Below are positions 1 through 64,000 of a stretch of DNA of 64,000 bases, one piece after another. Origin of the DNA: Pontibacter russatus (GTDB taxonomy: Bacteria; Bacteroidota; Bacteroidia; Cytophagales; Hymenobacteraceae); contig NZ_CP047984.1 of assembly GCF_009931655.1 (NCBI RefSeq), positions 3,551,001-3,615,000 on the forward strand, written 5' to 3'. The position numbers and the translations under genes were made by a program. The first letter of the stretch is position 1, and every line of letters starts with the position of its first letter. The notes below the pieces were generated by a model. That model saw only the letters and a list, made by a program, of their open reading frames with translations. It did no database searches and had not been told where the DNA came from.

Positions 1-1
1 G

Positions 2-589
2 GCCAGCCGCGTGGCGCACCGCTTCATGAAGGAGGTAATCCCCTACGTAGACTATGGGCTCGACTTCCACACGGGTGGCTCCAGCCGCGCCAACTACCCG
101 CAAATCCGCTGCGTGCTGGCTGACTATCGCAACGAGGAACTGGCCAGAGCTTTCGGAGCGCCCTTTATCCTGAACTCATCCTACCGGCAGGGCTCGCTGC
201 GCAAAGAGGCGGCCAAGCTCGGGAAATCCATCCTGGTATATGAAACCGGCGAGTCGCTGCGCTTTGATGAGAATGGCATCAACATCGGCATTGAGGGCAC
301 CTGCCGCGTGCTGCACCACCTGGGTATGATGCTGAACCACACCCCGCCGCAGGAGGAGAGTGTTATCTGTTTAAAAGATATATGGCTGCGGGCCAAAAAT
401 GCGGGCCTGTGGCGCAGCCACGTCCGACTGGGCGAGTTTATCAAAAAGAACCAAAACATCGGCAGCATCACCGATCCGTATGGGGAGATGGAGGTGCGCC
501 TGAACGCCCCGGCAGGCGGCTACGTGGTGGGCCTCAACAACATGCCGGTGGTCAACCAGGGCGACGCGCTGCTGCATATATCTTTTTAA
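2..589 (+). CDS. Succinylglutamate desuccinylase/aspartoacylase family protein (3' part)
   Basis: The frame is open from the window edge, so the 5' end lies outside and only about 195 C-terminal residues are visible. The segment GLDFHTGGSSR is the second zinc-site region of the M14-like AstE/AspA family, where the His is a metal ligand, followed by NYPQIRC. The last 70 residues form the small beta-rich C-terminal domain typical of bacterial members (APAGGYV, then the QGDALLHI end). Family enzymes are cytoplasmic zinc hydrolases that remove an acyl group from an amino acid, or related amidases; the substrate here cannot be told. The gene ends at TAA 587-589 just before a bidirectional terminator. 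The family is clear, the reaction is not. Confidence 0.85.
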   Translation, partial: ASRVAHRFMKEVIPYVDYGLDFHTGGSSRANYPQIRCVLADYRNEELARAFGAPFILNSSYRQGSLRKEAAKLGKSILVYETGESLRFDENGINIGIEGTCRVLHHLGMMLNHTPPQEESVICLKDIWLRAKNAGLWRSHVRLGEFIKKNQNIGSITDPYGEMEVRLNAPAGGYVVGLNNMPVVNQGDALLHISF

Positions 590-596
590 ATGCACT

Positions 597-652
597 CCCA
601 TATATAAAACGGGCCGCTGCAGGAAACTGCAACGGCCCGTTTTATATATGGG
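597..652. terminator. Bidirectional terminator with TATATA-capped stem
   Basis: The two arms, 597-616 and 633-652, are complementary: CCCATATATAAAACGGGCCG and CGGCCCGTTTTATATATGGG. The GC core is flanked by an A run on one side and a T run on the other, so it can stop both the plus gene ending at 589 and the minus gene ending at 667. The outermost part of the stem is the TATATA motif seen at other terminators in this window. Confidence 0.85.
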
Positions 653-666
653 TGAGAGAGTCTTAC

Positions 667-1158
667 TTAGAACACATACCGCACGTGCAGGGCCGTGTTC
701 CAGAAGCCGCCGCCCACCGGAATGTTCAGGTAAGGCTTCACGTCTGCGCCGATGGTGAAGGGGATGTCCCGTATATAGTACTCCAGTCCGAGGATGCCGT
801 CAATTCCCACACCCAGCACGTCGTCGTCGTAATGCTTGTGGCCGCGGTCGTAGTAGTCGTGGCCGTCCCAGAAGCCGACGTGGCCGCCGAGGCCGTAGTA
901 CCACAGCAGCCCTTCCGCGTTAAATGCCTGCGCGTGCTTCTCGTACAGCACGGTCACCACGGTGCCCCTGTACCGGAAGCTGGTGCTGACGATGCCCTCG
1001 ATGGCGGCGTCGCTGCTGATGAAGTGCTTGACGGTGAGGCCGGAGGCGCTGCCTCCCCGCAGGCCGATGCCTGTGGTGTAGCTGCTCTGGGCGTTTGCGC
1101 TAAAGGCCATGCACAGCACAAGGGCCAGTGCGAAAGAAATGCGGTAGATGGTTTTCAT
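667..1158 (-). CDS. Small outer-membrane beta-barrel protein
   Basis: A 163-residue exported protein. Residues 1-23 are a clear signal peptide (MKTIYRISFALALVLCMAF, then ANAQ at the cleavage site). The rest alternates polar and hydrophobic residues with Gly-rich turns, and the chain ends in VRYVF with a C-terminal Phe, the usual signal for barrel assembly. This fits an 8-stranded OmpA/OmpW-sized barrel. A His/Asp/Tyr-rich loop (GHDYYDRGHKHYDDD, about residues 98-112) would face outward. It stands alone between two terminators or gaps. Function is unknown; a structural or small-permeability role is a guess. Confidence 0.75.
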   Translation of the reverse strand: MKTIYRISFALALVLCMAFSANAQSSYTTGIGLRGGSASGLTVKHFISSDAAIEGIVSTSFRYRGTVVTVLYEKHAQAFNAEGLLWYYGLGGHVGFWDGHDYYDRGHKHYDDDVLGVGIDGILGLEYYIRDIPFTIGADVKPYLNIPVGGGFWNTALHVRYVF

Positions 1159-1268
1159 GAAACTGTTAAGAAATTAGGTAAGCAATGGCTGCGGCCTGAA
1201 CCCAGGCAACAGCGGCAGCAAAATTACTAATCTTAACGTAGCAAAAAACCGATTTTGTGTGGCTGGCG

Positions 1269-2057
1269 CTACTTATTCGGGCTGGTTTTGTAGTCCTGCA
1301 GGTAGGCTGTTTTGCCGGTGCGCCGCCCGATGAGCTTGAAAAAAGAGATAAAGTGCTGCTGGTCAAGCTGCAGGGCCTTGGCAAAAGGGTCGGGCGTTCC
1401 CGCCTCCTCGTAATCTTTTATATACTGCTCGCGCACCTGCTGCGCCTCCTCCAGTTCCTGGGCTGCTTGTATCTGCACCAGCCCCGTTTTCTCCCACAGC
1501 TTTTTCCACCAGCCGATGGTATGGATAAAGTACCAGTACTTCTGGTAATCCTGGCTTAAAAAATCCGGCACTTGCGCCACCGACTCGATTTCCCTTGTGA
1601 AGCAAACGTCCACGATGGCCAGGCAGCCTCCGGGCTTGAGGAAGCGGGCGATATAGGGCAGGTACTTTTCGTCGGTGCCGAAGTAGGTATAGGAGTCTAC
1701 CACAATCACTGCATCAAAGTATTCTTCGGCGAAGGGCAGGGAACGGGCGTCGGCCTCTAGCGGGATCACCTTTTCCGCGCAACCGGCGTCCAGTATGCGC
1801 TGGTAGTTGTCGCTGGCTGCGATGGCCTCGTCCACGGCCCACACGGTCACCCCGAACTCCTTCGCCAGAAAGATAGAGCTGATGGCCTTGCCGCAGCCCA
1901 GGTCCAGCACCCGCATCCCCGGCTTCAACTCCAGCGACTTGGTGAGGCTCTCGAGGTTGAAGAGCACATTCTCGCCCATGGAGTGCCGGCGCACCCACTC
2001 CGGGTCATATTGGGAGGCTTTCGGGAAAGCGTGTTGCAGCGGTTGTTCAGATGGCAT
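1269..2057 (-). CDS. Class I SAM-dependent methyltransferase
   Basis: 262 residues. Motif I, VLDLGCGKA, lies near residue 50 and binds S-adenosylmethionine. VWAVDEA follows as the acidic end of strand 2, then LEADARSLPFAEEYFDAVIVVDS as motifs II/III, and LKPGGCLAIVD as the post-motif strand. The N-terminal part (WVRRHSMGENVLFNLESL) resembles the Methyltransf_11/25 small-molecule group. The acceptor substrate is not evident. The gene is monocistronic, and its ATG is preceded by a TATATA motif at about 2059-2064. Cytoplasmic enzyme. The fold is sure, the target unknown. Confidence 0.85.
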   Translation of the reverse strand: MPSEQPLQHAFPKASQYDPEWVRRHSMGENVLFNLESLTKSLELKPGMRVLDLGCGKAISSIFLAKEFGVTVWAVDEAIAASDNYQRILDAGCAEKVIPLEADARSLPFAEEYFDAVIVVDSYTYFGTDEKYLPYIARFLKPGGCLAIVDVCFTREIESVAQVPDFLSQDYQKYWYFIHTIGWWKKLWEKTGLVQIQAAQELEEAQQVREQYIKDYEEAGTPDPFAKALQLDQQHFISFFKLIGRRTGKTAYLQDYKTSPNK

Positions 2058-2096
2058 ATATAAAGCGTTAGCGGCGATAAGTTAAACGTGATAGCT

Positions 2097-2270
2097 GTAT
2101 GGTTGAATGGTTAAATTGTTGAATGGTTGTGGGCTTGTTAATGGATGGTTGATCTATTATATAGAAATACAGCATCATATCGTCATTTGTGCTATATATG
2201 GCTACTCCCCATAAATAACCATTAAACCATTTAGCCATATAGCAACTAACAATCAGCAACCAACAATCAG
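2097..2270. repeat. AT-rich intergenic repeats built on TGGTTGAATGGTTAAA
   Basis: The left half repeats the words TGGTTGAATGGTT and AATTGTTGAATGGTTG. The right half holds complementary words (ACCATTAAACCATTTAG) and a local direct repeat, CAACTAACAATCAG / CAACCAACAATCAG. It resembles low-complexity intergenic repeats common in Bacteroidota. No coding potential is seen, and no promoter is assigned. Confidence 0.5.
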
Positions 2271-2942: not shown

Positions 2943-3063
2943 AAAACATATAGCTTACGCAGTCAGTACGTGCTTCAGGGCTGTATAGGCTGAAAAGAAT
3001 GATATCTTGATACGGAAAATATTCTGTTGCGGCAGCCCGCCATATATAGGGGTTATAAAAGCG

Positions 3064-3900: not shown

Positions 3901-4077
3901 ATATAAAGTCGCTGTGTCTGTCTTTTTAACGCAGTTCCCCGCCCTGCAAATCTAACAAAAAGCAGCCGAGGGTGAAAGCCGCCGTTAATTTAGCCTGTAT
4001 ATATAAAACGGGGGTATACGCATGCAACGTTTTGACCGATTTCCGGGTCCTATATAAGTAAGCATTTGCCAATCTCT

Positions 4078-4572: not shown

Positions 4573-4577
4573 CCCGG

Positions 4578-4639
4578 AGCCATATATAAAAAGCATATAT
4601 AAAAAGGCAGCCCCGCGGGCTGCCTTTTTATATATGGCT
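4578..4639. terminator. Bidirectional terminator with duplicated TATATA arm
   Basis: The right arm (ending TTTTTATATATGGCT) can pair with either of two left arms, because CATATATAAAAA occurs twice in tandem at about 4581-4592 and 4594-4606. The GC core is GGCAGCCC/GGGCTGCC. It lies between convergent genes ending at 4572 and 4656. Confidence 0.85.
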
Positions 4640-4655
4640 TAGTAAGATGACTGTT

Positions 4656-7460: not shown

Positions 7461-7503
7461 GGTGATATCCGGTTGATGCCTTACCTTTAAGCTATTGAAA
7501 GGG

Positions 7504-8784
7504 ATGAACGTCAGCTATATGGACAGTAAAATAACAGGCAAACTAAAAGTGTTAGCAGATGCTGCGAAGTACGACGTTTCCTGCTCGTCCAGCGGCGGTA
7601 AGCGCAAAAACGAAAACAAAGGCCTGGGCAACGCCGAGGGCATGGGCATCTGCCACAGCTACACCGAAGACGGCCGCTGCGTGTCGCTGCTCAAGATACT
7701 GCTCACCAACTTCTGCATATATGACTGCGCCTACTGCGTAACGCGCAAGAGCAATGATGTGCAGCGGGCGGCCTTTACGGTGCAGGAGGTGGTGGACCTG
7801 ACGATTAACTTTTACCGCCGCAACTATATAGAGGGGCTGTTCCTGAGCTCCGGCATTTTCAAGAACTCCGACTATACCATGGAGCGCCTCGTGCGGGTGG
7901 CCAAGAAGCTGCGGCAGGAGCACAGGTTCAACGGCTACATCCACCTGAAAACCATACCGGGCGCCAGCGAGGAACTCATCAAAGAAGCGGGGCTATATGC
8001 CGACCGGCTGAGCGTGAACATCGAGCTGCCGTCGGAGGCGAGTTTGCAGCAACTGGCCCCGGAGAAGAACTACACAGAGATTCTGCTGCCCATGGGCGCT
8101 ATCAGCCGGCAACTGGTGCAGGCCAGGGAGGAGAAAAAGCTGTTCAGGTCGGCCCCGGCCTTTGCGCCCGCCGGCCAGAGCACGCAACTGATCGTGGGGG
8201 CCTCTGCCGAAAACGACCACCAGATTCTGCAGCTGTCCGACCAGTTATATAAAAGCTTCAGCCTGAAGCGCGTCTACTATTCCGGTTATGTCCCCGTGAG
8301 CAGCGACAGCCGCCTGCCCATCATCGCGGAGCCGCCCATCATCCGTGAGAACCGCATTTACCAGGCTGACTGGCTCATGCGTTTCTACGGCTTCGACGCG
8401 AAGGAGATCGTGGACGAGCAGCACCCGCACCTGGAGCTGGACATTGACCCGAAACTGGCGTGGGCGCTGCGCAACCGCTTCGTGTTTCCGGTGGAGGTGA
8501 ACACGGCCGATTATGAGCTGATCCTGCGCGTGCCGGGCATCGGGGTGAAGTCGGCGAAGAAGATTGTGTCGGCGCGGCGGTTTACACAGCTGAGCTTTGA
8601 GCACCTGCGCCAGATGGGGGTGGTGCTCAAACGGGCGAAGTATTTTATCACCTGCCAGACCCGGAGCCTGCAGCGCCAGGAGTTCGACTCGCACCAGATC
8701 CGAAGAAAGATCCTGTTCGGCGACGGTTCCCTGCGAAGCGCGCTGCTCACACAGCAACTGGACCTGTTCCGGAAAGTCGGCTAA
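7504..8784 (+). CDS. Putative DNA modification/repair radical SAM protein (TIGR03916 type)
   Basis: About 426 residues from ATG 7504; ATG 7519 is equally possible. The radical-SAM cluster motif is NFCIYDCAYC, with cysteines at about 71, 75 and 78 that bind the [4Fe-4S] cluster. The N-terminal AAKYDVSCSSSGGKR is diagnostic of this family. A helix-hairpin-helix PGIGVKSAKKI near residue 345 suggests DNA binding. Members co-occur with TIGR03915/DUF4130 proteins and, in many species, with uracil-DNA-glycosylase-like domains, so a role in DNA base modification or repair is inferred; the reaction is unknown. The DUF4130 partner lies at 9093, separated by one small gene on the same strand. Confidence 0.9.
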   Translation: MNVSYMDSKITGKLKVLADAAKYDVSCSSSGGKRKNENKGLGNAEGMGICHSYTEDGRCVSLLKILLTNFCIYDCAYCVTRKSNDVQRAAFTVQEVVDLTINFYRRNYIEGLFLSSGIFKNSDYTMERLVRVAKKLRQEHRFNGYIHLKTIPGASEELIKEAGLYADRLSVNIELPSEASLQQLAPEKNYTEILLPMGAISRQLVQAREEKKLFRSAPAFAPAGQSTQLIVGASAENDHQILQLSDQLYKSFSLKRVYYSGYVPVSSDSRLPIIAEPPIIRENRIYQADWLMRFYGFDAKEIVDEQHPHLELDIDPKLAWALRNRFVFPVEVNTADYELILRVPGIGVKSAKKIVSARRFTQLSFEHLRQMGVVLKRAKYFITCQTRSLQRQEFDSHQIRRKILFGDGSLRSALLTQQLDLFRKVG

Positions 8785-9092: not shown

Positions 9093-9869
9093 ATGCACCT
9101 CTATACCTACGACGGTTCGTTTGAAGGACTGCTGACGGTGGTGTTTGAGGCGTATGAGCGGAAAGCCTGGCCCACCGCCATCGAGCAGCAGCACCTGGCG
9201 CAGCCCAGCATGTTCGGCGAAACTGTTGCCGTGCCTGCCGATGAGCAGAAGGCGCAGCGCGTGTGGCAGGGGCTGCAGAAAAAGTTGTCTGGGGGAGCGC
9301 TGAAGGAATTATACCATACCTTCCTGTGGGAGCAGCCGGGCTTCGAGCAACTGATTTTCGATTATATCCGCCTGGCCTTCGGTTCCAATGAAAATATCGA
9401 GGGGAATTATGCGGCTCCCTGTGTGCTGCAGGTGCAGCAGGCGGCAAAGCAGGTACACCGCGAGAAGCACCGGATGGAGGCTTTTGTGCGTTTCCAGAAA
9501 ACTTCCGACGGCCTGTTTTACGCCACTATTTCCCCGGACTTCAATGTGCTGCCGCTGATTGTAAGACACTTTGAGAAGCGGTATGCCGACCAGCGCTGGG
9601 CCATATACGACACCCGCCGCCGCTACGGCGCCTACTACGACCTGCAGAGCACGCGGCTGATAAACCTCGAGCTGCCACCGCAGCAGCGGCAGGCAACAGT
9701 GGCGGCTGCCGCCCTGGATGCCGAGGAGGAGGGGTACAGGCAACTTTGGCAGGTTTACTTCGAGAGTGTGAACATTCCCGAGCGGCGAAACCCGAAACTG
9801 CACCTGCGCCACCTGCCAAGGCGCTATTGGAAGTACCTCTCCGAGAAACAGCCCCAAAGCCTGCGTTGA
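9093..9869 (+). CDS. DUF4130 / TIGR03915 probable DNA-metabolism protein
   Basis: 258 residues matching the family found with the radical SAM protein encoded just upstream. The opening YTYDGSFEGLLTVVFEAYERK is the family signature. In the C-terminal half, PLIVRHFEKRYADQRWAIYDTRRRYG and YFESVNIPERRNPKLHLRHLPRRYWKYL are the strongly conserved blocks. In many bacteria this domain is fused to a uracil-DNA-glycosylase superfamily domain; here it stands alone, as usual in Bacteroidota. The biochemical role is unproven; DNA repair or modification together with the radical SAM enzyme is the accepted guess. The stop is followed by about 290 bp of non-coding DNA. Confidence 0.9.
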   Translation: MHLYTYDGSFEGLLTVVFEAYERKAWPTAIEQQHLAQPSMFGETVAVPADEQKAQRVWQGLQKKLSGGALKELYHTFLWEQPGFEQLIFDYIRLAFGSNENIEGNYAAPCVLQVQQAAKQVHREKHRMEAFVRFQKTSDGLFYATISPDFNVLPLIVRHFEKRYADQRWAIYDTRRRYGAYYDLQSTRLINLELPPQQRQATVAAAALDAEEEGYRQLWQVYFESVNIPERRNPKLHLRHLPRRYWKYLSEKQPQSLR

Positions 9870-13230: not shown

Positions 13231-15138
13231 ATGCACAAGCTATATACATTCCTGTGGGTGCTGGCAGGGCTCCTGCTGCTGCAGCCGCAGGCCCGCGCCA
13301 CCGGCGATGAGGTGCTGGCAGAGCTGGCGAAGGATGCGAACATCATCATCCGGTCCGAGGAAACCATTTTCACGGTCAACTCCATCAGCAGCGGCACCAC
13401 CACCTACAAAGTCATCCTCACCATCCTGAACGAGAACGGCAACCACCGCGCGAAACTGTATGTGGGCTACGACAAACTGACAAAGGTAGAGTATATAGAG
13501 GGGACCTCGTACGACCGCTTCGGCAAGAAGATCAAGTCGCTGAAGAACAAGGACATCGTGGACATGAGCGCGGTGGATGACGGCTCGCTGTTTACAGACA
13601 ACCGGGTGAAGATTGCCAACCTGACGCATACCGTGTTCCCTTACTCCGTGGAGTTTTCTTACGAGCTCTCCAACAGCAACATGTTGGTTTACCCGGGCTT
13701 TTACCCGCAGGACGAGGAGCGCCTGTCGGTTGAGAAAGCCATATATGAAGTGCGGGTGCCGCTGGGCATGCAGCTGCGCTACCACGAAAGCAACATGCCG
13801 CAGGCCGTCAAGAAAGGAGCTACCGCTACGCATGATACTTATATATGGCAGGTGGAGCACCTGAAGCCGGTGGAGACCGAGCCGTACGGGCCGGATTTTG
13901 TGGAGCTGGTGCCGGTGGTGCGCACCGCCCCCTCCGATTTCGAGGTGGAAGGCTACAAGGGCAACATGGACACCTGGAAGAGCTACGGACAGTGGTTCAA
14001 CCAGCTGAACCAGGGCCGCGACGTGCTGCCGGAGGCGACAAAGCAAAAACTTACCGCACTTACCGCCAACGCCAAAACCGAGGAGGAAAAAGTGCGGATG
14101 ATATATGACTACCTGCAGGGCAAGACGCGCTATGTGTCCATTCAGCTGGGCATTGGTGGCTGGCAGCCATTCGAGGCCAGCTTTGTGGACAGCAAAGGCT
14201 ACGGCGACTGCAAGGCGCTCACCAACTATACCCAGGCCATGCTGAAGGCAGTGGGCATTGCCTCGCACCATGCCCTGATTCGGGCCGGAGACGATGAGGC
14301 GGACATCAGGACGGCTTTTCCGAGCTCGCAGTTCAACCACGTGGTGCTGGCCGTGCCCTTGCCTAACGACACGCTCTGGCTGGAGTGTACGAGCCAGTCA
14401 GAGGCCGCCGGCTACTCCGGCAGCTTTACCGGCGGCCGCCATGCGCTGCTGGTAACGCCCGGGGGAGGCAAACTGGTGAAAACCAAAGATTATCTGGCCA
14501 CCGACAACTCCCAACTGCGCCATATCACGGTGCGGCTGGATGAGAAGGGCAGCGGCACGGCCAGCGTCACGACCCGCTACAAAGGTCTGCAGCAGGAGTC
14601 GCGCAGCGGGATTATCCACAACCTGCAGCCCGACGAACAGCGCAAATGGTTGTACAGGCAGGTGCAGGTGCCGTCGTTCGAGATCAGCAAGTTTGCCTTC
14701 GAGCAGGAGAAAAGCCGGGTGCCGGTCGTGAAGGAGCAACTGGAGCTGAGCCTGCGCCAGTGCGCCACCATCAGCGGCAAGCGCATGTTCGTGACGCCCA
14801 ACCTGATGAACAAGTGGACGCACGTGCCCGACCAGAAGGAAAAGCGGCTAACAGAAGTGGTGTGGGAGATGGCTTTCCTGGATGTGGACACCGTGGAGAT
14901 TGAGCTGCCGGCCGGCTATGCCGTTGAGTTCCTGCCGCAGGAGATAAGCCATACCTCGGAGTTTGGCACATACAAGGCCACTGTAGAAGTAGAGGGCCAG
15001 CGCGTCATCTACCGGCGCAGCCTGCAGATGGACAAAGTCCGCTACAGCCCCGAGTCATATATAAAGCTGGTGGAGTTTTTCAACAATGTGATCAAGGCCG
15101 ACGGCCAGCAGGTCGTGTTTGTGAAGAACATCCCCTGA
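13231..15138 (+). CDS. DUF3857 and transglutaminase-like exported protein, intact triad
   Basis: 635 residues. Signal peptide (FLWVLAGLLLLQPQARA), DUF3857 N-terminal beta domain (YKVILTILNENGNHRAKLYV), then a transglutaminase core beginning VRMIYDYLQGKTRYVSIQLG. The catalytic Cys is in GYGDCKAL at about residue 327 and the His in FNHVVLAV at about 370. The acidic third position is less certain (WLECTSQ). Family proteins are exported, and some act on peptides or crosslink proteins; the substrate is unknown. It follows a paralogue lacking the Cys, 98 bp upstream across a palindromic repeat. A hairpin at 15163-15194 closes the unit. Confidence 0.88.
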   Translation: MHKLYTFLWVLAGLLLLQPQARATGDEVLAELAKDANIIIRSEETIFTVNSISSGTTTYKVILTILNENGNHRAKLYVGYDKLTKVEYIEGTSYDRFGKKIKSLKNKDIVDMSAVDDGSLFTDNRVKIANLTHTVFPYSVEFSYELSNSNMLVYPGFYPQDEERLSVEKAIYEVRVPLGMQLRYHESNMPQAVKKGATATHDTYIWQVEHLKPVETEPYGPDFVELVPVVRTAPSDFEVEGYKGNMDTWKSYGQWFNQLNQGRDVLPEATKQKLTALTANAKTEEEKVRMIYDYLQGKTRYVSIQLGIGGWQPFEASFVDSKGYGDCKALTNYTQAMLKAVGIASHHALIRAGDDEADIRTAFPSSQFNHVVLAVPLPNDTLWLECTSQSEAAGYSGSFTGGRHALLVTPGGGKLVKTKDYLATDNSQLRHITVRLDEKGSGTASVTTRYKGLQQESRSGIIHNLQPDEQRKWLYRQVQVPSFEISKFAFEQEKSRVPVVKEQLELSLRQCATISGKRMFVTPNLMNKWTHVPDQKEKRLTEVVWEMAFLDVDTVEIELPAGYAVEFLPQEISHTSEFGTYKATVEVEGQRVIYRRSLQMDKVRYSPESYIKLVEFFNNVIKADGQQVVFVKNIP

Positions 15139-18446: not shown

Positions 18447-18499
18447 TTATATATAAAAAAGGCGCTGAGGATAGTCCCCAGCGCCTTTTTTATATATGG
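18447..18499 (-). terminator. Terminator of the S46 peptidase gene with TATATA-capped stem
   Basis: Left arm TATATATAAAAAAGGCGCTG and right arm CAGCGCCTTTTTTATATAT, with loop AGGATAGTCCC. It is A/T-flanked on both sides and can work in either direction. The nearest gene ending here is the minus-strand peptidase with stop at 18515. Confidence 0.85.
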
Positions 18500-18514: not shown

Positions 18515-20839
<2,325 letters not shown>

Positions 20840-20887
20840 GGAAATTTGTTTAGATGAATTAAACTGTTGCAAATTTAATAACATTAC

Positions 20888-42073: not shown

Positions 42074-43984
42074 ATGTGTGGGATAACAGGAGTGTATGCG
42101 TTTAAGGAGGCAGGCCGCGATGCCGCAGGGCGGCTGCCAGCGGCTGTGGCCGCCCTGCGGCATCGCGGCCCGGACGCGGAGGGCGTATATGCCCACGGCC
42201 CTGTGGGGCTCGGCCACCGCAGGCTGTCCCTGATTGCGCCCGTGCCAGCGGCAAACCAGCCTTTCACGAGCACAGACGGCCGCTACACCATCATCTTCAA
42301 CGGGGAGATATTCAATTACGGCAGGCTCAGGAAAGATTTACAGGAAAAGGGAGCCGCTTTCCGCACCCATTCCGACACGGAGGTGCTGCTGCACCTGTAT
42401 GCGCGGGCCGGGCAGGAGTGCCTGAAAAAGCTGACGGGCTTCTTCGCGCTGGCCATATATGACGCCGTGGAGGAGAGCCTGTTCCTGGCCCGCGACCGCT
42501 ACGGCGAAAAGCCCCTGCTGTATTATAAGGATGCGGATAAATTCCTGTTCGGTTCGGAACTGGCGGCCCTGCTGCAGCTCGGCGTTCCACGTGAACTGGA
42601 CTACACCTCGCTGTTCCAGTACCTCCAACTGACCTATGTGCCCGCGCCCGCCTCTATGCTGAAGGGTGTGAAGAAGCTGCAGCCGGGGCAGTCGTTATAT
42701 ATAAAGCACGGGAGGGTGCAGGAGAATACGTGGTACCGGCTGCCCTTCGACGGGGAAAAGGCCGCGCACAACCCACTGACATATCCGCAGCAGCAGGCTA
42801 AACTCAAAAAGCTTTTGCAGCAGGCCGTCTCCGACAGGCTGGTGGCCGATGTGCCGGTGGGTGCTTTCCTCAGCGGCGGCATCGATTCGTCGGTGGTTGT
42901 CGCGCTGGCAGCGCAGCAGGTCCCGAAGCTCAAAACCTATGCCGTCGGCTTCCCAGACCAGCCTTTCTTCGACGAGACCCGCTACGCCCGGCTGGTGGCT
43001 GAACGATACGGCACCGACCACACCGAACTGCGCTTGTCCGACACGGAGTTATATGCCAACCTCCCCGGCATGCTGGACAGCCTGAGCGAACCCTTTGCCG
43101 ATTCCTCGGCGCTGGCGGTATATGCCCTGAGTAAACATGTGGGGCGGGAGGTGAAGGCGGTGCTGAGCGGCGACGGCGCTGACGAGCTTTTTGCCGGCTA
43201 TAACAAGCACCGGGCGGAGTTTGCTCTGCTGCAAGGCGGCTTTAAGGCTGTGGCAGTAGAAAAGCTGAAGTTTATATGGGATGCGCTGCCGAAATCCCGA
43301 AACTCTTTTGCGGCAAACAAGGTAAGGCAGTTGCAGCGCTTCGCGGCGGGCGCAAGTTTGCCTGCGGCAGAGCGCTACTGGCTATGGGCCACCTGGCAAC
43401 GGGAAGAACAGGCGCTGGCCCTGCTGGCCTCCCAACACAGGCAGGCGGCACAGGACAGGCTGTACCGCGCCCGCAAGAGCAGGTTGTTGGATTCCGTCAA
43501 CAAAAATTATAATAACCTAAACAATATTAACAACGTACTATGTTCCGATTGGCGTCTGGTGCTGGCGAATGACATGCTCCCGAAGACAGACCTGATGGGG
43601 ATGGCACATGGCCTGGAGATACGCAGCCCGTACCTGGACCACCGGCTGGTGAAGTTTGCGTTTTCGTTGCCGGTCTCCTCCAAGATTGATGAAAAGCTGC
43701 AGAAAAAGATTTTGCGCGACACTTTTAAAGACCTGTTGCCGCCTGCGTTGCACAGGCGCCCGAAGCAGGGCTTTGAGATACCCTTGCGCTCCGTTCTGCA
43801 GTCGGGGGCAGGGCTGGTGAACGACCTTCTTTCGGAGGATTACGTAAGAGCGCAGGGCGTTTTTGAGGCGCAGCAGGTGCATCACATTCGCCGGAGCCTA
43901 AGTGCTGGCAAGGCAGATGCCGTCCGGTATCAGGCATGGATGCTGCTGGTTTTTCAGTACTGGTGGCAGAAGTATATGTGCTGA
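42074..43984 (+). CDS. asnB: Asparagine synthase-like glutamine amidotransferase
   Basis: 636 residues. MCGITGVYAF places the N-terminal nucleophile Cys at position 2, exposed after Met removal; LRHRGPDAEG and IFNGEIFNY complete the class II glutaminase domain. The synthetase domain starts at about residue 240, with the ATP-pyrophosphatase loop FLSGGIDSSVV near 267 and LSGDGADELFAGYNKH. It makes asparagine, or amidates another carboxylate, using glutamine and ATP. Its place at the head of a glycan locus containing a UDP-glucose dehydrogenase suggests it may amidate a uronic acid, as WbpS-like enzymes do. Codons about 14-33 contain a perfect 22-bp inverted repeat. Confidence 0.9.
   Translation: MCGITGVYAFKEAGRDAAGRLPAAVAALRHRGPDAEGVYAHGPVGLGHRRLSLIAPVPAANQPFTSTDGRYTIIFNGEIFNYGRLRKDLQEKGAAFRTHSDTEVLLHLYARAGQECLKKLTGFFALAIYDAVEESLFLARDRYGEKPLLYYKDADKFLFGSELAALLQLGVPRELDYTSLFQYLQLTYVPAPASMLKGVKKLQPGQSLYIKHGRVQENTWYRLPFDGEKAAHNPLTYPQQQAKLKKLLQQAVSDRLVADVPVGAFLSGGIDSSVVVALAAQQVPKLKTYAVGFPDQPFFDETRYARLVAERYGTDHTELRLSDTELYANLPGMLDSLSEPFADSSALAVYALSKHVGREVKAVLSGDGADELFAGYNKHRAEFALLQGGFKAVAVEKLKFIWDALPKSRNSFAANKVRQLQRFAAGASLPAAERYWLWATWQREEQALALLASQHRQAAQDRLYRARKSRLLDSVNKNYNNLNNINNVLCSDWRLVLANDMLPKTDLMGMAHGLEIRSPYLDHRLVKFAFSLPVSSKIDEKLQKKILRDTFKDLLPPALHRRPKQGFEIPLRSVLQSGAGLVNDLLSEDYVRAQGVFEAQQVHHIRRSLSAGKADAVRYQAWMLLVFQYWWQKYMC
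42113..42170. repeat. Perfect 22-bp inverted repeat inside asnB
   Basis: Arms 42113-42134 (starting GGCCGCGATGCC) and 42149-42170 are exact reverse complements, separated by 14 nt. The arms are very GC-rich. In the mRNA this is a very stable hairpin about 40 nt after the start codon. It encodes GRDAAGRLPAAVAALRHRG, partly in the stretch between the Cys loop and the conserved His-Arg-Gly-Pro-Asp motif. Confidence 0.9.
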
Positions 43985-48924: not shown

Positions 48925-48925
48925 T

Positions 48926-53995: not shown

Positions 53996-56260
53996 ATGGA
54001 AAGTATCCTTTACGCAATTCCCGCTTTCGGCGTGGCCGCCCTCATTTACACCTGGTTCAGGTCGGCGTGGGTCACGAAGCAACCTGCCGGAAACGACCGC
54101 ATGAGCACCATTGCCCGCCATATAGCCGATGGAGCCATGGCCTTCCTGAAAGCGGAGTATAAAGTAATGGCTTATTTCGTCATTATCGCCTCATTGTTCC
54201 TGTTCTACCTGGGCTACACCGGCGAGAAGTCTCACCCGCTTATCGTGGTGTCCTTTATCATCGGCGCGTTTCTGTCGGCGCTGGCAGGCTTCATCGGCAT
54301 GCGCATTGCCACCAAGTCGAACGTACGCACTGCCGAGGCCGCCCGCAGCAGCCTCTCCCGGGCGCTGAACGTCTCGTTTGCGGGAGGCTCCGTGATGGGG
54401 ATGGGCGTGGCCGGACTGGCTGTGCTGGGCCTGGGCTCGCTGTTCATCACTTTCTATTATATGTTTGTGTACAGCACCGGCGCCGATGTGAACGGCGTTG
54501 AGATGGAGCGCGCGCTAGAGGTGCTGACGGGCTTCTCACTGGGCGCGGAGAGTATCGCGCTGTTTGCCCGCGTGGGCGGCGGCATCTACACCAAGGCCGC
54601 TGACGTGGGCGCCGACCTCGTAGGCAAGGTAGAGGCCGGCATCCCCGAGGATGACCCCCGCAACCCCGCCACCATCGCCGACAACGTGGGCGACAACGTA
54701 GGCGACGTGGCCGGTATGGGCGCTGACCTGTTCGGCTCGTACGTGGCCACCATCCTGGCCACCATGGTGCTGGGTCGCGAGGTGGAGGTGCAGGATAATT
54801 TCAGCGGCATCTCGCCCGTCATCCTCCCCATGCTCATTGCCGGATTGGGCATTATCTTCTCCCTGATCGGAATGCTGTTTGTGCGTGTAAAAGAGGGCGG
54901 CGATGTGCAGGCGGCCCTGAACCGCGGCAACTGGATATCGGTGGCGCTGACGGCCGTGGCCTCTTATTTCGTTATCCAGTGGCTGCTGCCCGAGAACCTG
55001 AGCCTGCGCAATTTCGACTTCACGGCAGACGGGGTATATATGGCGGTGCTGGTGGGCCTCGTAGTGGGCTCACTCATGAGCATCATCACAGAATACTATA
55101 CCGCGATGGGCAAAAAACCCGTGAACTCTATTGTGCAGCAGTCTTCCACGGGCCATGCCACCAACATCATAGCCGGTCTGGCGGTGGGCATGCACTCCAC
55201 TGTGCTGCCGATTATTGTGCTGGCGGCGGGCATTGTGTTTTCTTATGCGGCGGCTGGTCTATACGGCGTGGCCATCGCGGCGGCCGGTATGATGGCCACC
55301 ACGGCCATGCAACTTGCCATCGACGCCTTCGGCCCTATTGCCGATAATGCCGGTGGTATTGCTGAGATGAGCGAACTCCCCAAAGAAGTGCGCGAGCGCA
55401 CCGACATACTGGATGCGGTGGGCAACACCACGGCGGCCACCGGCAAAGGCTTTGCCATTGCCTCAGCCGCGCTAACGTCGCTTGCCTTATTCGCCGCTTT
55501 CGTGGGCATTGCCGGCATCCCGAGCATCGACTTATATAAAGCGCCGGTGCTGGCGGGCCTTTTCATCGGTGCCATGATTCCATTTGTGTTCTCGGCGCTG
55601 GCTATTGCGGCGGTGGGCAGAGCGGCCATGGCGATGGTACACGAGGTGCGCCGCCAGTTCCGCGAGATTCCGGGCATCATGGAAGGCACAGGCAAGCCGG
55701 AGTATGAGAAGTGCGTGGCCATCTCGACAAAAGCGGCCATCCGCGAAATGATGCTGCCAGGCGCTATTGCGCTTATCGTGCCGCTTATCGTAGGTTTTGG
55801 TCTGGAGGGCGCTTTCCCGGACACGTCTTCGGCGGAGGTGCTGGGCGGCTTGCTGGCTGGCGTTACCGTGTCGGGGGTGCTGATGGCCATGTTCCAGTCT
55901 AACGCTGGTGGTGCCTGGGACAACGCCAAGAAATCGTTTGAGAAAGGCGTGGAGATTAACGGCGTGATTGAGTACAAAGGCTCGGATGCCCACAAAGCCT
56001 CCGTGACCGGCGATACCGTGGGCGACCCTTTTAAAGACACGTCCGGCCCGTCCATGAACATCCTCATCAAACTCATGTCGATTGTGTCGCTGGTTATCGC
56101 GCCGCACATTGCCCTGGAGCAGGAGCCACCCATTCCGGAAGCCCCTGTCGAACTGGAGCCGATTAATATGGACGTAAGAGAGCTTTACCCGGAAACAGCG
56201 AAAGTGGGCATCAACCCAGAGAGTACCGTGGTGCTCTCACTTACTTCTCTGAAGTTTTAG
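53996..56260 (+). CDS. hppA: Membrane-bound ion-pumping pyrophosphatase, K+-dependent type
   Basis: 754 residues, with about 16 transmembrane helices. The pyrophosphate site is clear: ADVGADLVGKVEAGIPEDDP and NVGDNVGDVAGMGADLFGSY carry the Asp/Lys ligands for Mg-PPi, and DTVGDPFKDTSGP lies near the C-terminus. The segment GNTTAATGKGFAI has Ala where K+-independent enzymes have Lys, and Thr three residues on, so K+ dependence is inferred. Whether it moves H+, Na+ or both cannot be decided by eye. It uses PPi from biosynthesis to energise the inner membrane. The start is preceded by a CATATATGG site covering the ATG itself. Confidence 0.95.
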   Translation: MESILYAIPAFGVAALIYTWFRSAWVTKQPAGNDRMSTIARHIADGAMAFLKAEYKVMAYFVIIASLFLFYLGYTGEKSHPLIVVSFIIGAFLSALAGFIGMRIATKSNVRTAEAARSSLSRALNVSFAGGSVMGMGVAGLAVLGLGSLFITFYYMFVYSTGADVNGVEMERALEVLTGFSLGAESIALFARVGGGIYTKAADVGADLVGKVEAGIPEDDPRNPATIADNVGDNVGDVAGMGADLFGSYVATILATMVLGREVEVQDNFSGISPVILPMLIAGLGIIFSLIGMLFVRVKEGGDVQAALNRGNWISVALTAVASYFVIQWLLPENLSLRNFDFTADGVYMAVLVGLVVGSLMSIITEYYTAMGKKPVNSIVQQSSTGHATNIIAGLAVGMHSTVLPIIVLAAGIVFSYAAAGLYGVAIAAAGMMATTAMQLAIDAFGPIADNAGGIAEMSELPKEVRERTDILDAVGNTTAATGKGFAIASAALTSLALFAAFVGIAGIPSIDLYKAPVLAGLFIGAMIPFVFSALAIAAVGRAAMAMVHEVRRQFREIPGIMEGTGKPEYEKCVAISTKAAIREMMLPGAIALIVPLIVGFGLEGAFPDTSSAEVLGGLLAGVTVSGVLMAMFQSNAGGAWDNAKKSFEKGVEINGVIEYKGSDAHKASVTGDTVGDPFKDTSGPSMNILIKLMSIVSLVIAPHIALEQEPPIPEAPVELEPINMDVRELYPETAKVGINPESTVVLSLTSLKF

Positions 56261-59318: not shown

Positions 59319-59360
59319 TAAAAATCGGTAGCAGCCCGCAAAGCTGTCTACCGATTTTTT
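59319..59360 (+). terminator. Terminator of adk-obg
   Basis: AAAAATCGGTAG (from 59320) and CTACCGATTTTTT (59348-59360) pair around a 16-nt loop. TATATATA lies 17 bp upstream. Confidence 0.8.
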
Positions 59361-59518: not shown

Positions 59519-59598
59519 GCCAGAATGTCACGGATGTGTGATTGGCAAGTTAATTGTCAAAGGAAAGGAGACTTACCAACTTAATTTTTTAAGGCATT

Positions 59599-60159: not shown

Positions 60160-60162
60160 GCC

Positions 60163-61308
60163 ATGGCGAAGAGAGACTATTATGAGGTGCTGGGGCTGAG
60201 CAAGAGCGCAAGCCAGGAGGAGGTAAAAAAAGCCTACCGTAAGATCGCCATCAAGTTCCACCCCGACAAGAACCCCGACGACCCCACTGCTGAGGATAAA
60301 TTCAAGGAGGCGGCGGAAGCCTACGAGGTGCTCAGCGACCAGCAGAAGCGCCAGCGTTACGACCAGTTCGGCCACCAGGGCATGAACGGCGGCTTCGGCG
60401 GAGGCGGCATGAACATGGAGGATATCTTCTCGCAGTTCGGCGATATTTTCGGGGGCGGCGGAGGCAGCCCGTTCGAGAGCTTCTTCGGCGGGCAATCCAG
60501 AGGTGGCCGGCGCACCCGCAAAGGCAGCAACCTGCGCATCAAGCTGAAGCTGAACCTGGAGGAGATCGCCAACGGCGTTGAGAAGAAGATAAAGGTGAAA
60601 CGCTACGTGGCCTGCGCCACCTGCGGCGGCAACGGCGCGAAGAACGGCACCGACATGCAGACCTGTAACTCCTGCCAGGGCTCCGGCCAAGTGCGCAAGG
60701 TAGTGAACACGATGCTGGGCCAGATGGTGTCCACGGCTACGTGCCCCACCTGTAACGGCGAGGGCCGCATCGTCACAAACAACTGCGAAACCTGCCACGG
60801 AAGCGGCAGAGAGTTGCAGGAAGAGGTGATCACCATCAACGTGCCGGCGGGCGTGATGGACGGCATGCAGCTGTCGATGAGCGGCAAGGGCAACGTGCCG
60901 GAACGCGGTGGCGTGCCTGGCGACCTGTTGATCCAGATCGAGGAGGAGGCGCACCCGATGCTGAAGCGCGATGGCAACAACGTCATCTTCGACCAGTACA
61001 TCAGCTTTGTGGATGCCGCGCTGGGCGCTGAGATTGAAGTGCCCACCATTACGGGCAAGGTGAAAATCACCATCAAGCCAGGCACGCAGAGCGGGGAGAT
61101 CTTCAGGCTGCGTGGCAAGGGCGTGCAGGACATAAACGGCTACGGCAAAGGCGACCAGTTGATCCACATCAACGTCTGGACGCCGAAATCGCTTAACAGC
61201 GAGGAACGTGCCGTGCTGGAGAGCCTTCGGGGCTCCAACAACTTTGCGCCGCACCCCGGCAAGAACGAAAAAGGCTTCTTCGAGAAAGTGAAGGACTACT
61301 TTCAATAA
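60163..61308 (+). CDS. dnaJ: Chaperone protein DnaJ
   Basis: 381 residues. J domain residues 5-70 with the HPD motif at 33-35 (KFHPDKNP). A Gly/Phe-rich linker ([20 protein letters not shown]). Four zinc-binding repeats start at Cys151: [32 protein letters not shown]. The C-terminal substrate-binding domains follow ([38 protein letters not shown]). DnaJ delivers unfolded proteins to DnaK and stimulates its ATPase. Translationally close to grpE and ended by a TATATA-capped terminator. Confidence 0.97.
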
Positions 61309-61311
61309 GCA

Positions 61312-61373
61312 GCCTATATATAAAACAGGCCCTGCCTTTCCGCGTGAGAGGCAGGGCCTGTTTTATATATGGC
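61312..61373 (+). terminator. Terminator of grpE-dnaJ with TATATA-capped stem
   Basis: GCCTATATATAAAACAGGCC and GGCCTGTTTTATATATGGC form the outer stem, with CTGCC/GGCAG continuing it inward around TTTCCGCGTGA. The stem is interrupted by at most one mismatch near its base. The layout is the same as at 597-652. Confidence 0.88.
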
Positions 61374-61692
61374 TTTCATCAAACTTGCAGAGCATTTTTA
61401 TAAGCAAACCATATATAGCGTCACTAAAATAAACCCAAGACCTTGCGGTGTCCGAAGGTCCCGCGAGCGTCTGAAACACAGTGAGGCGGCTTGCACCGTC
61501 GGAGACCCGCACGAGCTGCGTAGTATATAAACGGAGTTCTCAGCCTATATACGCTTGTCTCCCGGCCACCCGAGCCACTGTTTCATCAAGTTATTCACAG
61601 CTTTGGTCGATATAATACATGGCCAGTGGCATGTGCTGTTGCCGGGTATCATTAATAAAGGTATTTTTGATTACATCAAAAGAAGACCGGCT
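61374..61692. other. Intergenic region upstream of the ABC transporter genes
   Basis: About 320 bp. It holds the GC-rich repeat block described separately (61438-61520) and ATATA sites at about 61411, 61523 and 61545. TTATTCACA, one change from a DnaA box, lies at about 61591. The frame is open from 61555 into the ABC gene, but its composition before 61693 is not protein-like. Confidence 0.45.
61438..61520. repeat. GC-rich block with two related units
   Basis: CTTGCGGTGTCCGAAGG (from 61442) and CTTGCACCGTCGGAG (from 61490) start two units of about 27 bp, each ending CCCGC(AC)GAGC. They are spaced 48 bp apart. The opening TTGCGGTG(T)CCGAA recurs at about 29481. A dispersed non-coding repeat is likely. 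Confidence 0.4.
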
Positions 61693-62604
61693 TTGAGCAT
61701 TCTGAAAATTGACGGCGTCACCAAAACCTACGCCAACCACACAGCCCTCGACAACGTGAGCTTTGACATTCCGGCAGGCTGTATATTCGGTTTGCTGGGG
61801 CCCAACGGCGCTGGCAAAACCTCGCTCATCCGCATCATCACCCAGATTACGGGTGCCGACAGCGGCCATATATACTTTAAAGGGGAGCGCCTGAAGCCTG
61901 CCCACACCAAAGACATCGGCTACCTGCCTGAGGAGCGGGGCCTGTACAAGAAAATGAAGGTGGGCGAGCAACTGCTGTACCTCACGCGGCTGAAAGGCCT
62001 GAGCAAAGCCGAGGCGACCGCGCGCATCAAAACCTGGGTGGACCGGTTTGAGATACGCGAGTGGTTAGGCAAGCACATCGAAGACCTCTCGAAGGGGATG
62101 CAGCAGAAGGTGCAGTTCATCGCCACGGTGCTGCACGAGCCGGCGCTGATCATCCTGGACGAGCCGTTCTCCGGTTTCGACCCCATCAACGCCAACCTGA
62201 TCAAAGACGAAATCCTGCGCCTGCGCGACAACGGGGCCACCATCATCTTCTCGACGCACCGCATGGAGTCGGTGGAGGAACTCTGCGACAACATCGCCCT
62301 CATCGACCGGGCTCAGAAGGTGCTGGACGGGCCCGTGAGGGAGGTGAAAGACGCCTACAAAACCGATACGTACCAGGTGATTGGCAACGGACAGTTGCTC
62401 ATCCTGTCGCCGGATTTTCAGGTGCTGGAGCAGCAAGACAACCACGGCATCTTCAGGGCCCACATCAGGCTCCTGAACGGGGCCACGCCAAACGACCTGC
62501 TGCGGTACCTTATCCAGCGCGTGGAGGTGCATTCTTTCGTGGAACTGGTGCCGAGCATCAATGATATCTTCATCCAAAAAGTAACCGAAACCCACCATGT
62601 CTAA
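61693..62604 (+). CDS. ABC transporter ATP-binding protein, NatA-like
   Basis: About 303 residues from TTG 61693 (LSILKIDGVTKTYANH), the start that places the first strand correctly. Walker A LGPNGAGKTSL; Q-loop YLPEERGLYKKM, with the Pro-Glu-Glu-Arg-Gly typical of the NatA/DUF4162 group; signature LSKGMQQKVQF; Walker B LIILDEPFSGFDP; switch His in FSTHRM. The last 80 residues form the DUF4162-like C-terminal domain. It powers export with the membrane subunit encoded next, whose ATG overlaps this gene by 8 bp. Substrate unknown (Na+ or a drug in the best-known members). Confidence 0.93.
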   Translation: MSILKIDGVTKTYANHTALDNVSFDIPAGCIFGLLGPNGAGKTSLIRIITQITGADSGHIYFKGERLKPAHTKDIGYLPEERGLYKKMKVGEQLLYLTRLKGLSKAEATARIKTWVDRFEIREWLGKHIEDLSKGMQQKVQFIATVLHEPALIILDEPFSGFDPINANLIKDEILRLRDNGATIIFSTHRMESVEELCDNIALIDRAQKVLDGPVREVKDAYKTDTYQVIGNGQLLILSPDFQVLEQQDNHGIFRAHIRLLNGATPNDLLRYLIQRVEVHSFVELVPSINDIFIQKVTETHHV

Positions 62605-63952
62605 AATCTGGTTGATCATACAGCGCGAGTACCTGACACGTGTGCGCAAGAAGAGCTTTATCATTATGACGCTGCTGACGCCGGTGCTGCTGGCCGCCTT
62701 CATGATTCTGCCGGGGCTGCTCATCACCATGTCGGGCGAGACGGAGACGGTGATGGTGCTGGACGAGAGCGGCCTGTTCGAGGGCAAACTGGAGGACCAG
62801 AAAGACCTGAAATTCATCCCGCTGGCGGGTTCGCTGGAACTGGCCAAGACGGTGTACCAGGAAACAGACAACACTGCGCTGCTATATATCCCGAAGCTGT
62901 CGATAGACAACCCGGAGGGCATTACCATATATGGCAAGAAAAACACCAGCCTGCAGACGCAGGTGCGCCTCGAGAACGTGCTGGAGAAAGAGATTGAGAA
63001 CCAGCGCTTCCTGGCCTCCGGATTGGACCGCGCCACGCTGGACGAGATAGAGGCAGATATAAACCTGGAAACCATTAGCCTGAGCGATGAGGGCGAGAAA
63101 GACAACAACGCCATCGTGACTTCGATAGCGGGGGTGGCAGGAGCCGTGATCATCTACTTCTTCATCTTTCTGTACGGCGTGCAGATCATGCGCGGTGTGA
63201 TAGAGGAGAAGACGAGCCGCATTGTGGAGGTGATGATCTCCTCGGTGAAGCCTTTCCAACTGATGATGGGGAAGATCATCGGCATCGCCGCAGTGGGGCT
63301 CACGCAGTTCCTGCTTTGGATCGTGCTGTCGTTTATTGCCGTCACGGCTGTATCGGCTGCCTTTGGGGTAGATGCCGCCCCGTCGCCGGTAGAGCAGTTT
63401 GCCGCCGGGCAGGCCGCCGCACAGGGCGAAGCGGCAACTGAAGAAGACGGGACAACCGTAAATAACCCCGCCGATAACGAGATGGCCAACACGATAACCG
63501 ATGTGAAGGAAAGCTTTGCCAACCTGCCCATCGCGTTGATTTTCGGCTGTTTCCTGTTTTACTTCCTGGGCGGCTACCTGCTCTACGGCTCGCTGTTCGG
63601 GGCCATCGGCGCCGCCGTGGACAACGAGACCGACACGCAGCAGTTCATGATGCCGATCACTATCCCGCTCATCATCTCGTTCATCATGTCTTACTCGGTG
63701 GTGCTGAAAAACCCGGACGGGCCGGTGGCCTTCTGGATGTCGATTATCCCGTTCACCTCGCCCATCGTGATGATGGTGCGCGTGCCTTTCGGCGTGCCTG
63801 CCTGGGAGTTGCTGCTGTCGATGGCGCTGCTGGTGGCGGGCTTTATCTTCACCACCTGGATAGCGAGCCGCATTTACCGCGTCGGCATCCTGATGTACGG
63901 CAAAAAAATCAACTACAAGGAACTGTCGAAGTGGCTGTTCTACCGGGTGTAG
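62597..63952 (+). CDS. ABC-2 type permease, NatB-like
   Basis: 451 residues. The first TM helix (FIIMTLLTPVLLAAFMILPG) is followed by a large periplasmic domain of about 160 residues. A cluster of TM helices starts near 175 (SIAGVAGAVIIYFFIFLYGV), with GVIEEKTSRIVEVMISSVKP as the conserved cytoplasmic coupling helix of this family. An Ala/Glu/Asn-rich loop (about 270-300) interrupts the helices. The end IYRVGILMYGKKINYKELSK is typical. It overlaps the ATPase gene by 8 bp and forms an exporter with it. Confidence 0.92.
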   Translation: MSKIWLIIQREYLTRVRKKSFIIMTLLTPVLLAAFMILPGLLITMSGETETVMVLDESGLFEGKLEDQKDLKFIPLAGSLELAKTVYQETDNTALLYIPKLSIDNPEGITIYGKKNTSLQTQVRLENVLEKEIENQRFLASGLDRATLDEIEADINLETISLSDEGEKDNNAIVTSIAGVAGAVIIYFFIFLYGVQIMRGVIEEKTSRIVEVMISSVKPFQLMMGKIIGIAAVGLTQFLLWIVLSFIAVTAVSAAFGVDAAPSPVEQFAAGQAAAQGEAATEEDGTTVNNPADNEMANTITDVKESFANLPIALIFGCFLFYFLGGYLLYGSLFGAIGAAVDNETDTQQFMMPITIPLIISFIMSYSVVLKNPDGPVAFWMSIIPFTSPIVMMVRVPFGVPAWELLLSMALLVAGFIFTTWIASRIYRVGILMYGKKINYKELSKWLFYRV

Positions 63953-63969
63953 GTTTGTATCGAGTTAAA

Positions 63970-64000
63970 ATCATATATAACCGGCCTCTCCACAGGCCGG
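63970..64000 (+). terminator. Terminator cut by the window edge
   Basis: CATATATAA is followed by the hairpin CCGGCCT-CTCCAC-AGGCCGG (63981-64000). The window ends exactly at the 3' arm. By analogy with 597-652 and 61312-61373, a T run and TATATA should follow outside the window. Confidence 0.65.

Follow-up and report, generated by a model that had tools for sequence, protein, structure and literature searches.

An iterated octamer with lineage-specific dialects in Pontibacter, a putative pilus-independent DNA uptake signal

What keeps a stretch of the Pontibacter russatus genome crowded with the short motifs ATATA and TATAT, in genes and spacers alike? The stretch in question (the window, G000:C1:3551001-3615000, 64 kb, where G000 is P. 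russatus) belongs to a single-contig genome of 4,965,849 bases. An earlier note, made from the letters of the window, held that the motif was over-represented, that it was a signal at the DNA level, and that it resembled either HIP1 (highly iterated palindrome 1) of cyanobacteria or the uptake sequences of other bacteria. We find that the excess of ATATA reflects one dialect of a word iterated throughout the genus. By analogy with known systems, the word is probably, though far from certainly, part of a putative pilus-independent DNA uptake-signal system with dialects.

The window holds 235 ATATA and 221 TATAT, 456 occurrences in all, and these merge into 241 maximal alternating runs that are five or more bases long. 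A scan places 40 such runs in the first 10 kb, close to the 39 sites that had been counted there by eye; GC content, which had been put at about 58%, is actually 55.0%. Over-representation was confirmed both against composition (74 expected from independent bases, a ratio of 6.2) and against an order-1 model (59 expected, 7.7-fold). An order-2 model predicts 215 (2.1-fold), and an order-3 model absorbs most of the excess (394 expected, 1.16-fold) because TATA and ATAT are themselves over-represented. Alternating runs of 5-8 bases are over-represented and longer ones are rare, and this is the same in genes and spacers.

Chance and codon use are ruled out as causes by synonymous shuffling. In 41 window genes called by a simple heuristic script, ATATA and TATAT occur 199 times, compared with 66.1±7.7 after 100 within-gene synonymous shuffles (z 17), and TATATA occurs 46 times rather than 8.8. 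The codon-shuffled control, which had been set beforehand as the outcome to overturn the claim, does not reproduce the excess. A GC-matched background, the second such outcome, is likewise ruled out. The excess is missing from all 74 other loci that reached 8 kb (record titles place nearly all of them in Bacteroidota, four in Pontibacter), where order-1 ratios are 0.48-2.53 compared with 7.7 in the window; these loci come from the best 80 of 592 relatives, all 80 of which were fetched and six dropped for being shorter than 8 kb. Within P. russatus, 18 of 20 further 20-kb stretches gave order-1 ratios of 5.5-11.7. The two low stretches, L103 (1.6) and L107 (2.3), were left out of the P. russatus pool for the enrichment, variant, shuffle, conservation, exact/expected and codon analyses.

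Codon choice bears the same mark. Rare ATA and TTA codons had been said to precede TAT, and comparison with their use elsewhere bears this out. ATA supplies 21.6% of isoleucine codons in P. russatus overall, 70.9% (100/141) before TAT and 36.5% before TAC, while TTA rises from 3.2% of leucine codons overall to 23.5% (40/170) before TAT. In the congener G020, the shares before TAT are 11.6% for ATA (5/43) and 2.2% for TTA (1/46). The five codon sites given as examples all exist and lie in frame with called genes; of their coordinates, 13741 was exact and four were off by 2-7 bases:

7717..7722, + strand, Ile-Tyr as ATA-TAT, in frame in the open reading frame 7495-8784 (earlier given as 7715)
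8245..8253, + strand, Leu-Tyr-Lys as TTA-TAT-AAA, in frame in the open reading frame 7495-8784 (earlier 8247)
13741..13746, + strand, Ile-Tyr as ATA-TAT, in frame in the open reading frame 13231-15138
42455..42460, + strand, Ile-Tyr as ATA-TAT, in frame in the asparagine-synthase-like gene 42074-43984 (earlier 42462)
55532..55540, + strand, Leu-Tyr-Lys as TTA-TAT-AAA, in frame in the pyrophosphatase gene 53996-56260 (earlier 55530)

The iterated signal is real, but ATATA is only the visible part of its unit, the octamer ATATATAA. The most enriched longer words of P. russatus relative to G020 include ATATATAA, CATATATAA and TTATATATAA. Single-base variants define the octamer as ATATATAA, with an AG ending tolerated and other endings tolerated to a lesser degree. 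It occurs 3,231 times in the 4.97-Mb genome (1619 + 1612 on the two strands, compared with 186 + 195 for the reversed word), while 49 congeners hold 52-255 copies per strand, or 115-496 in total. GCCATATAG is found 136 + 147 times in P. russatus and 2-27 times per strand in 36 congeners tested. Copies in the window are as follows:

1..64000, both strands, 70 copies of ATATATA[AG] by exact scan, 20 of which start within called genes (genes missed by the script count as spacer)
600, 2056, 3042, 3899, 4582, 4595, 7375, 11028, 15057, 16820, 17135, 18172, 18449, + strand, examples of ATATATA[AG]
21412, 21769, 27649, 28863, 40323, 42697, 47857, 49759, 53565, 57639, 59304, 61316, 63973, + strand, further examples
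642, 2192, 4628, 13839, 18490, 22158, 29282, 34933, 38392, 50800, 51045, - strand, examples of ATATATA[AG]
53128, 56281, 56585, 61363, 62882, - strand, further examples

Sister genomes carry equally strong words, so an artefact of one assembly is ruled out. Comparison with P. russatus showed that G020 has a word of its own, AAGTATAA. Dialects were then sought in 20 kb per genome (the pyrophosphatase region) of 40 congeners, with more sequence for G020 (280 kb), G032 (120 kb), G069 (80 kb) and G022 (420 kb). In most of the 40 stretches, AAGTATAA, AGGTATAG or AACTATAR ranked first. When exact patterns were counted in whole genomes, 40 of 50 had more than 1,000 forward-strand copies of a tested word. 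This threshold is passed by AAGTATAA in 23 genomes (maximum 7,030 copies), by AGGTATAG in 12 (maximum 5,222), by AACTATAR in eight, four of these also among the 23 (maximum 11,475), and by ATATATAA in one. Reversed words are rare by comparison: 45 + 35 against 3529 + 3501 for AAGTATAA in G013, 48 + 54 against 2713 + 2509 for AGGTATAG in G017, and 199 + 156 against 5652 + 5823 for AACTATAR in G018. The spelling GGGTATRG was found in one genome, G069, where it is known from 80 kb (GGGTATA 55 times vs 10.5 expected, GGGTATGG 26 vs 4.5). The genus has at least five spellings. All share TAT followed by purines, and the first three bases vary: AAG, AGG, AAC, ATA or GGG. Octamer positions 1-6 carry most of the signal in each dialect, positions 7 and 8 accept purines, and the flanks show little base preference beyond one or two bases.

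Some genomes stand between two dialects. G027, G033, G065 and G071 mix AAG and AAC words, and forward counts of AAGTATAA/AACTATAR form a graded series through G030 (2747/187), G071 (2987/1187), G033 (2215/2346), G027 (1983/3287), G065 (1080/4988) and G031 (433/5641). Nine genomes (G002, G007, G024, G025, G026, G028, G034, G064 and G068) have a weak word or none. In 20-60 kb of each of them no comparable TATA-R word was found; G007 and G002 show weak word mixtures. G026, which lacks a TATA-R word, has a dispersed GC-rich word instead, CCTCCGGA, present 22 times in 60 kb (L146, L196 and L197) vs 3.2 expected. Outside the genus, AGGTATAG, the only word searched there, reaches at most 117 copies per strand in 150 genomes, which represent five further genera of the same family. 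As a separate observation, ACCTAGG/CCTAGGT occurs 36 times across the whole 22 kb of L016 (Hymenobacter cavernae NZ_BMHT01000006.1, 1-22154) vs 2.1 expected under order 2; of four other Hymenobacter loci checked, three lack it and one has it twice. It may be a further iterated palindrome of the family. In L013 and L074 the top words are due to tandem arrays, and in L045 to clusters.

The dialects, with their shared core, follow phylogeny on a single-gene tree of the pyrophosphatase. Dialect labels change 8 times on this tree, compared with a mean of 20.4 and a minimum of 17 in 300 shuffles; without the weak genomes there are 5 changes vs a shuffled minimum of 8. All 12 AGG rows group in a single clade (support 100/100), two AAC rows group with the mixed genome G033 (100/99), and AAG rows fall in more than one place. 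P. russatus joins G064 and G025 (89/96), both without a strong word. The deep branches are not trustworthy, because outgroup rows (Hymenobacter, Rufibacter, Sabulibacter) fall inside Pontibacter.

Sites are conserved within a dialect. With sites taken from both members of six pairs per dialect, AAGTATAA sites are 94.4% identical vs 82.7% in flanks, and AGGTATAG sites 92.9% vs 85.2%. Exact AAGTATAA is retained in 144 of 191 cases (75%) vs 562 of 1131 (50%) for composition-matched words, and exact AGGTATAG in 100 of 142 (70%) vs 1144 of 2893 (40%). Conservation between relatives, which had been proposed as a check, therefore holds within the AAG and AGG dialects and fails between P. russatus and G020. 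There the P. russatus sites are 65.2% identical vs 72.8% in flanks, and in the reverse direction the figures are 63.5% vs 76.3%. When 28 P. russatus ATATATAA sites and 50 G020 AAGTATAA sites were aligned, hardly any correspondence between the two words was seen, and one of 13 CATATATAA sites faces CAAGTATAA. The aligned sites also show no single ancestral word, and simple in-place conversion between dialects is rejected on both grounds.

One island in the P. russatus genome carries a foreign dialect. L103 (G000:C1:3675001-3695000, GC 0.47-0.54) carries 17 AAGTATAR, 20 AACTATAR, 5 AGGTATAR and 5 ATATATAR, whereas a 4-kb bin nearby typically has about four ATATATAR and few words of other spellings. 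The foreign-dialect island spans about 19 kb; the ten of its proteins that were scanned include transporters, a cytochrome and a stress protein. Its words point to import, the likely donor being a Pontibacter with mixed AAG and AAC words. L107 is for the most part nearly free of words, whatever the dialect. We infer that both low-word stretches, two of the 20 sampled, are imported DNA; scarcity of the word in DNA of recent arrival is a trait of uptake-signal systems. The dialect of a stretch can hint at its donor lineage, as the L103 island beside the window shows.

These results bear on another explanation, a context-dependent mutation bias of P. russatus that raises alternating AT runs. Such a bias fits the restriction of the ATATA excess to P. 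russatus within the genus, and the presence of the runs at synonymous positions and in spacers. It would not explain why run length nearly stops at 8, why the L103 island in the same genome is spared, or why TTAA, TAAT and AATT show no enrichment over synonymous shuffles in window genes. Sister genomes also have equally strong but different octamers, with sites conserved beyond their flanks. We give this explanation almost no chance.

The placement of the words argues for a signal in the DNA, as had been claimed. In every genome the two strands carry nearly equal numbers of the word. Within genes as identified by a simple script (about 75-85% coding, with some true genes counted as spacer), counts far exceed those of 30 codon shuffles on both strands: the AAG word occurs 245 times in sense (vs 34) and 250 times in antisense (vs 15), and the sense and antisense figures are 105 vs 3.6 and 85 vs 5.4 for AGG, 43 vs 9.1 and 23 vs 2.6 for AAC, and 46 vs 7 and 75 vs 6 for the P. 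russatus word. Genic words occur in more than one reading frame. With these heuristic calls, word density is 0.41-2.0 per kb in genes and 2.2-6.2 per kb between them, so that spacers are 2-7 times denser, and spacer words are more frequent between convergent or tandem genes than between divergent ones.

Inverted word pairs show a preferred spacing, and in P. russatus and AAG genomes many of them sit at predicted terminator-like hairpins. Judged by eye, 10 of 12 P. russatus inverted pairs 40-50 bases apart are such hairpins, ordered as word, A tract, GC stem, loop, stem, T tract, word. About 16 of 37 AAG inverted pairs 40-53 bases apart have the same form with AAGTATAA/TTATACTT, and several others are conserved coding sites. 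The window contains four examples:

600..649, predicted bidirectional terminator-like hairpin whose two outer ends each bear a word (ATATATAAAA - GC stem - TTTTATATAT), fold -32.9 kcal/mol for 600-647
4582..4635, predicted terminator-like hairpin with tandem words at 4582 and 4595 on one side and 4628 on the other, fold -25.7 kcal/mol
18447..18497, predicted terminator-like hairpin with words on both sides, adjoining gene 18515-20884, fold -27.3 kcal/mol for 18449-18495
61314..61370, predicted terminator-like hairpin with words on both sides, just past the DnaJ-like gene 60163-61308, fold -39.3 kcal/mol for 61316-61368

DnaJ domains were matched in the product of gene 60163-61308. Elsewhere in the window, a DUF4130 protein (PF13566) is encoded at 9093-9869 on the + strand. 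Window genes also strongly avoid GATC (74 vs 212 in shuffles) and CTAG (6 vs 36).

Short over-represented words that differ between species are known from Chi, and a role like that of Chi (read by AddAB/RecBCD) or KOPS (FtsK orienting polar sequences), as a hotspot of recombination or a signal of orientation, was considered. Such signals should have polarity. Taking the sign of each locus's GC skew as a proxy for the leading strand, AGG words in spacers lean slightly to the G-rich strand (73/48, p 0.029). No clear polarity is seen overall, the counts on the G-rich and the other strand being 666/607 for AAG (295/289 in spacers), 66/56 for AAC and 173/138 for AGG, and the P. russatus word differs little from its reverse complement. 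Because the words lack polarity, a Chi- or KOPS-like role is highly improbable.

Genes for natural transformation are present in Pontibacter, as judged by sequence matches. comEC and dprA matches occur in 50 of 50 genomes, both being broken in the same two, and helix-hairpin-helix (HhH) matches also occur in all 50. In P. russatus, the comEC, dprA and HhH genes are intact, and the double-HhH protein has 316 residues and an N-terminal hydrophobic segment. In G009 (on L263 and L264) and G022 (on L252, L257 and L261), comEC and dprA are split by stops and frame changes, and in G022 so is the double-HhH gene. Were the two losses independent, breakage of both genes in the same two of 50 genomes would have one chance in 1,225. 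Genes elsewhere in G009 and G022 (another 20-kb stretch) are mostly intact: 12/13, 14/15, 12/13, 5/7 and 14/14 in five comparisons. The joint breakage in the same two genomes means that the competence set seems to decay together, which suggests that comEC, dprA and the double-HhH gene belong to a single pathway, subject to selection elsewhere. G022 also has the lowest exact/expected word ratio of the 21 AAG genomes sampled (10.0; the others range over 14-61).

A mechanism that would unite these results is as follows. Free DNA would be taken up by natural transformation via machinery without pili (ComEC, DprA and the double-HhH protein), and a receptor would prefer fragments bearing the local spelling. 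Preferred fragments would be taken up and recombined more often, so that word-bearing alleles would spread by molecular drive and words would accumulate to thousands wherever protein and regulation allow. As the receptor's preference drifts, the word set would slowly turn over to a new dialect. In our judgement the chances are even that this is a system of an undescribed kind, one that belongs to Bacteroidota, does without type IV pili, uses an AT-rich word and has at least five dialects in one genus as well as genomes between two dialects.

Several observations weigh against an uptake signal. No published experiment on uptake or transformation in these organisms came to light. For the ATPase of type IV pili and type II secretion systems, no full-length PF00437 match was found in the 50 genomes (pilins themselves were not searched); matches span at most 66 of 370 positions, the size of a P-loop, and three of 50 are just over the cut-off, each about 60 residues long. 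Since no pilus ATPase was found, the known kind of receptor, a minor pilin, would have no engine in Pontibacter. G009, with comEC and dprA broken, keeps 5,041 word copies, and the nine genomes with a weak word or none have unbroken comEC, dprA and HhH matches. For both reasons a link between the word and the competence pathway is suggestive only. Word decay in G022 is also only suggestive, as the other genomes have one-mismatch excesses both below and above its 0.75 (0.10-1.01). DUF5689 is absent from P. russatus, matches 22 of 50 genomes and does not covary with the word. Of four AAG/AGG cross comparisons with 7-9 sites each, sites are above flanks in two and below in two. Most AGG inverted pairs, those at spacings of 39 and 53, trace to a single conserved locus present in about ten relatives, and hairpin pairs are few in the AAC sample. 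Finally, word spacing is nearly random (coefficient of variation 0.97; largest gap 5.5 kb, P 0.034). Absence of competence genes is ruled out as the cause of word absence, as comEC, dprA and HhH matches occur in all genomes and DUF5689 does not covary.

Some of these observations would be expected if the word were instead the binding site of an abundant chromosomal or nucleoid-organising protein, with selection acting on chromosome structure and dialects recording its changing specificity. TATA steps are flexible, density is near one site per kb, and there are somewhat fewer long gaps than random. Conservation within dialects and turnover across them is expected of any changing DNA reader, and words persist in G009 although its comEC and dprA are broken. 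Genic sites on both strands, with pairs at terminator-like hairpins, are the pattern of the DNA uptake sequences (DUS) and uptake signal sequences (USS) of other bacteria. A site present in thousands of copies should also change very slowly, but this one genus has at least five spellings, and besides the four mixed genomes it includes nine with little or no word. We therefore consider this explanation unlikely.

A process like that behind HIP1, in which methylation and strand-biased mismatch repair create and keep a word without selection, is very unlikely. HIP variants do replace one another between lineages (PMC4390886), and the P. russatus word is nearly palindromic (TTATATATAA). As described in the same source, HIPs are GC-rich palindromes with matching methyltransferases, while AAGTATAA, AGGTATAG, AACTATAR and GGGTATGG are not palindromes of any sort, GC-rich or otherwise. 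The comparison first drawn with HIP1 and uptake sequences thus stands in one half: HIP1 is the poorer match because four of the five words are not palindromic, and uptake sequences fit better, with terminator pairs and dialects along the phylogeny.

If the words are an uptake signal, self-tagging of DNA evolves repeatedly, also in a distant phylum without a pilus engine. A non-pilin DNA receptor that reads sequence would be implied, its specificity drifting fast enough to isolate species genetically. The mixed genomes, losses and broken competence genes would provide a dense natural experiment on word switching, as well as a genetic handle on how Bacteroidota bring DNA across the outer membrane. 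The view that no equivalent had been described in this phylum agrees with the literature, as no established uptake sequence for Bacteroidota was found in open-access full text. No description of such a word in Pontibacter was found there either (subscription journals and preprints were outside this scope); AAGTATAA, AACTATAG and AGGTATAG gave no match as whole words, and matches to ATATATAA were unrelated by title and abstract.

Among known systems, HIP1 and the alternate HIPs of cyanobacteria resemble the Pontibacter word in being one high-frequency octamer that other words replace in some lineages, and differ in that, as portrayed in PMC4390886, they are palindromes rich in GC and linked to methyltransferases; the words of Pontibacter are AT-rich, and only that of P. 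russatus is in part palindromic. Within Bacteroidota, a comparable case is natural transformation in Riemerella, which uses ComEC, DprA and an HhH protein alongside parts unlike known machinery (PMC8459023, PMC7965970). R. anatipestifer is reported to transform by machinery that is novel in part (PMC8459023). A preference for its own DNA is seen in R. columbina, and the account in PMC7965970 establishes no uptake word and leaves open the role of the A-rich strings that are the frequent k-mers of Riemerella. DUF5689, part of a surface protein needed there, has no match in the P. russatus genome.

The closest likeness is to DUS and USS. In copy number, strand symmetry, core dialects, terminator pairs, foreign-dialect islands and conservation, the Pontibacter word appears to match their descriptions (PMC3630211, PMC12616744, PMC7371117). 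The DUS of Neisseriaceae, as presented in PMC3630211, are also short words in thousands of copies, in coding and intergenic sites, whose dialects have an invariant inner core and follow the core-genome tree, with inverted pairs at terminators and words of other dialects within a genome. Their core is CTG, whereas the 8-bp AT-rich word of Pontibacter has a TAT-R core and belongs to a different phylum; a ComP-type receptor is unlikely where no type IV pilus ATPase was found. The USS of Pasteurellaceae, in the description of PMC12616744, likewise have two dialects with a shared core and terminator-associated inverted repeats, but with a GCGG core and a discontinuous extended motif; the minor pilin ComN/PpdA is their predicted receptor (PMC12616744). 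The Pontibacter word is not filed as DUS or USS proper, since these go with a pilus and a minor-pilin receptor. Uptake-sequence dialects are known from Neisseriaceae and Pasteurellaceae, with type IV pilins as known or predicted receptors, and Pontibacter would be the third case.

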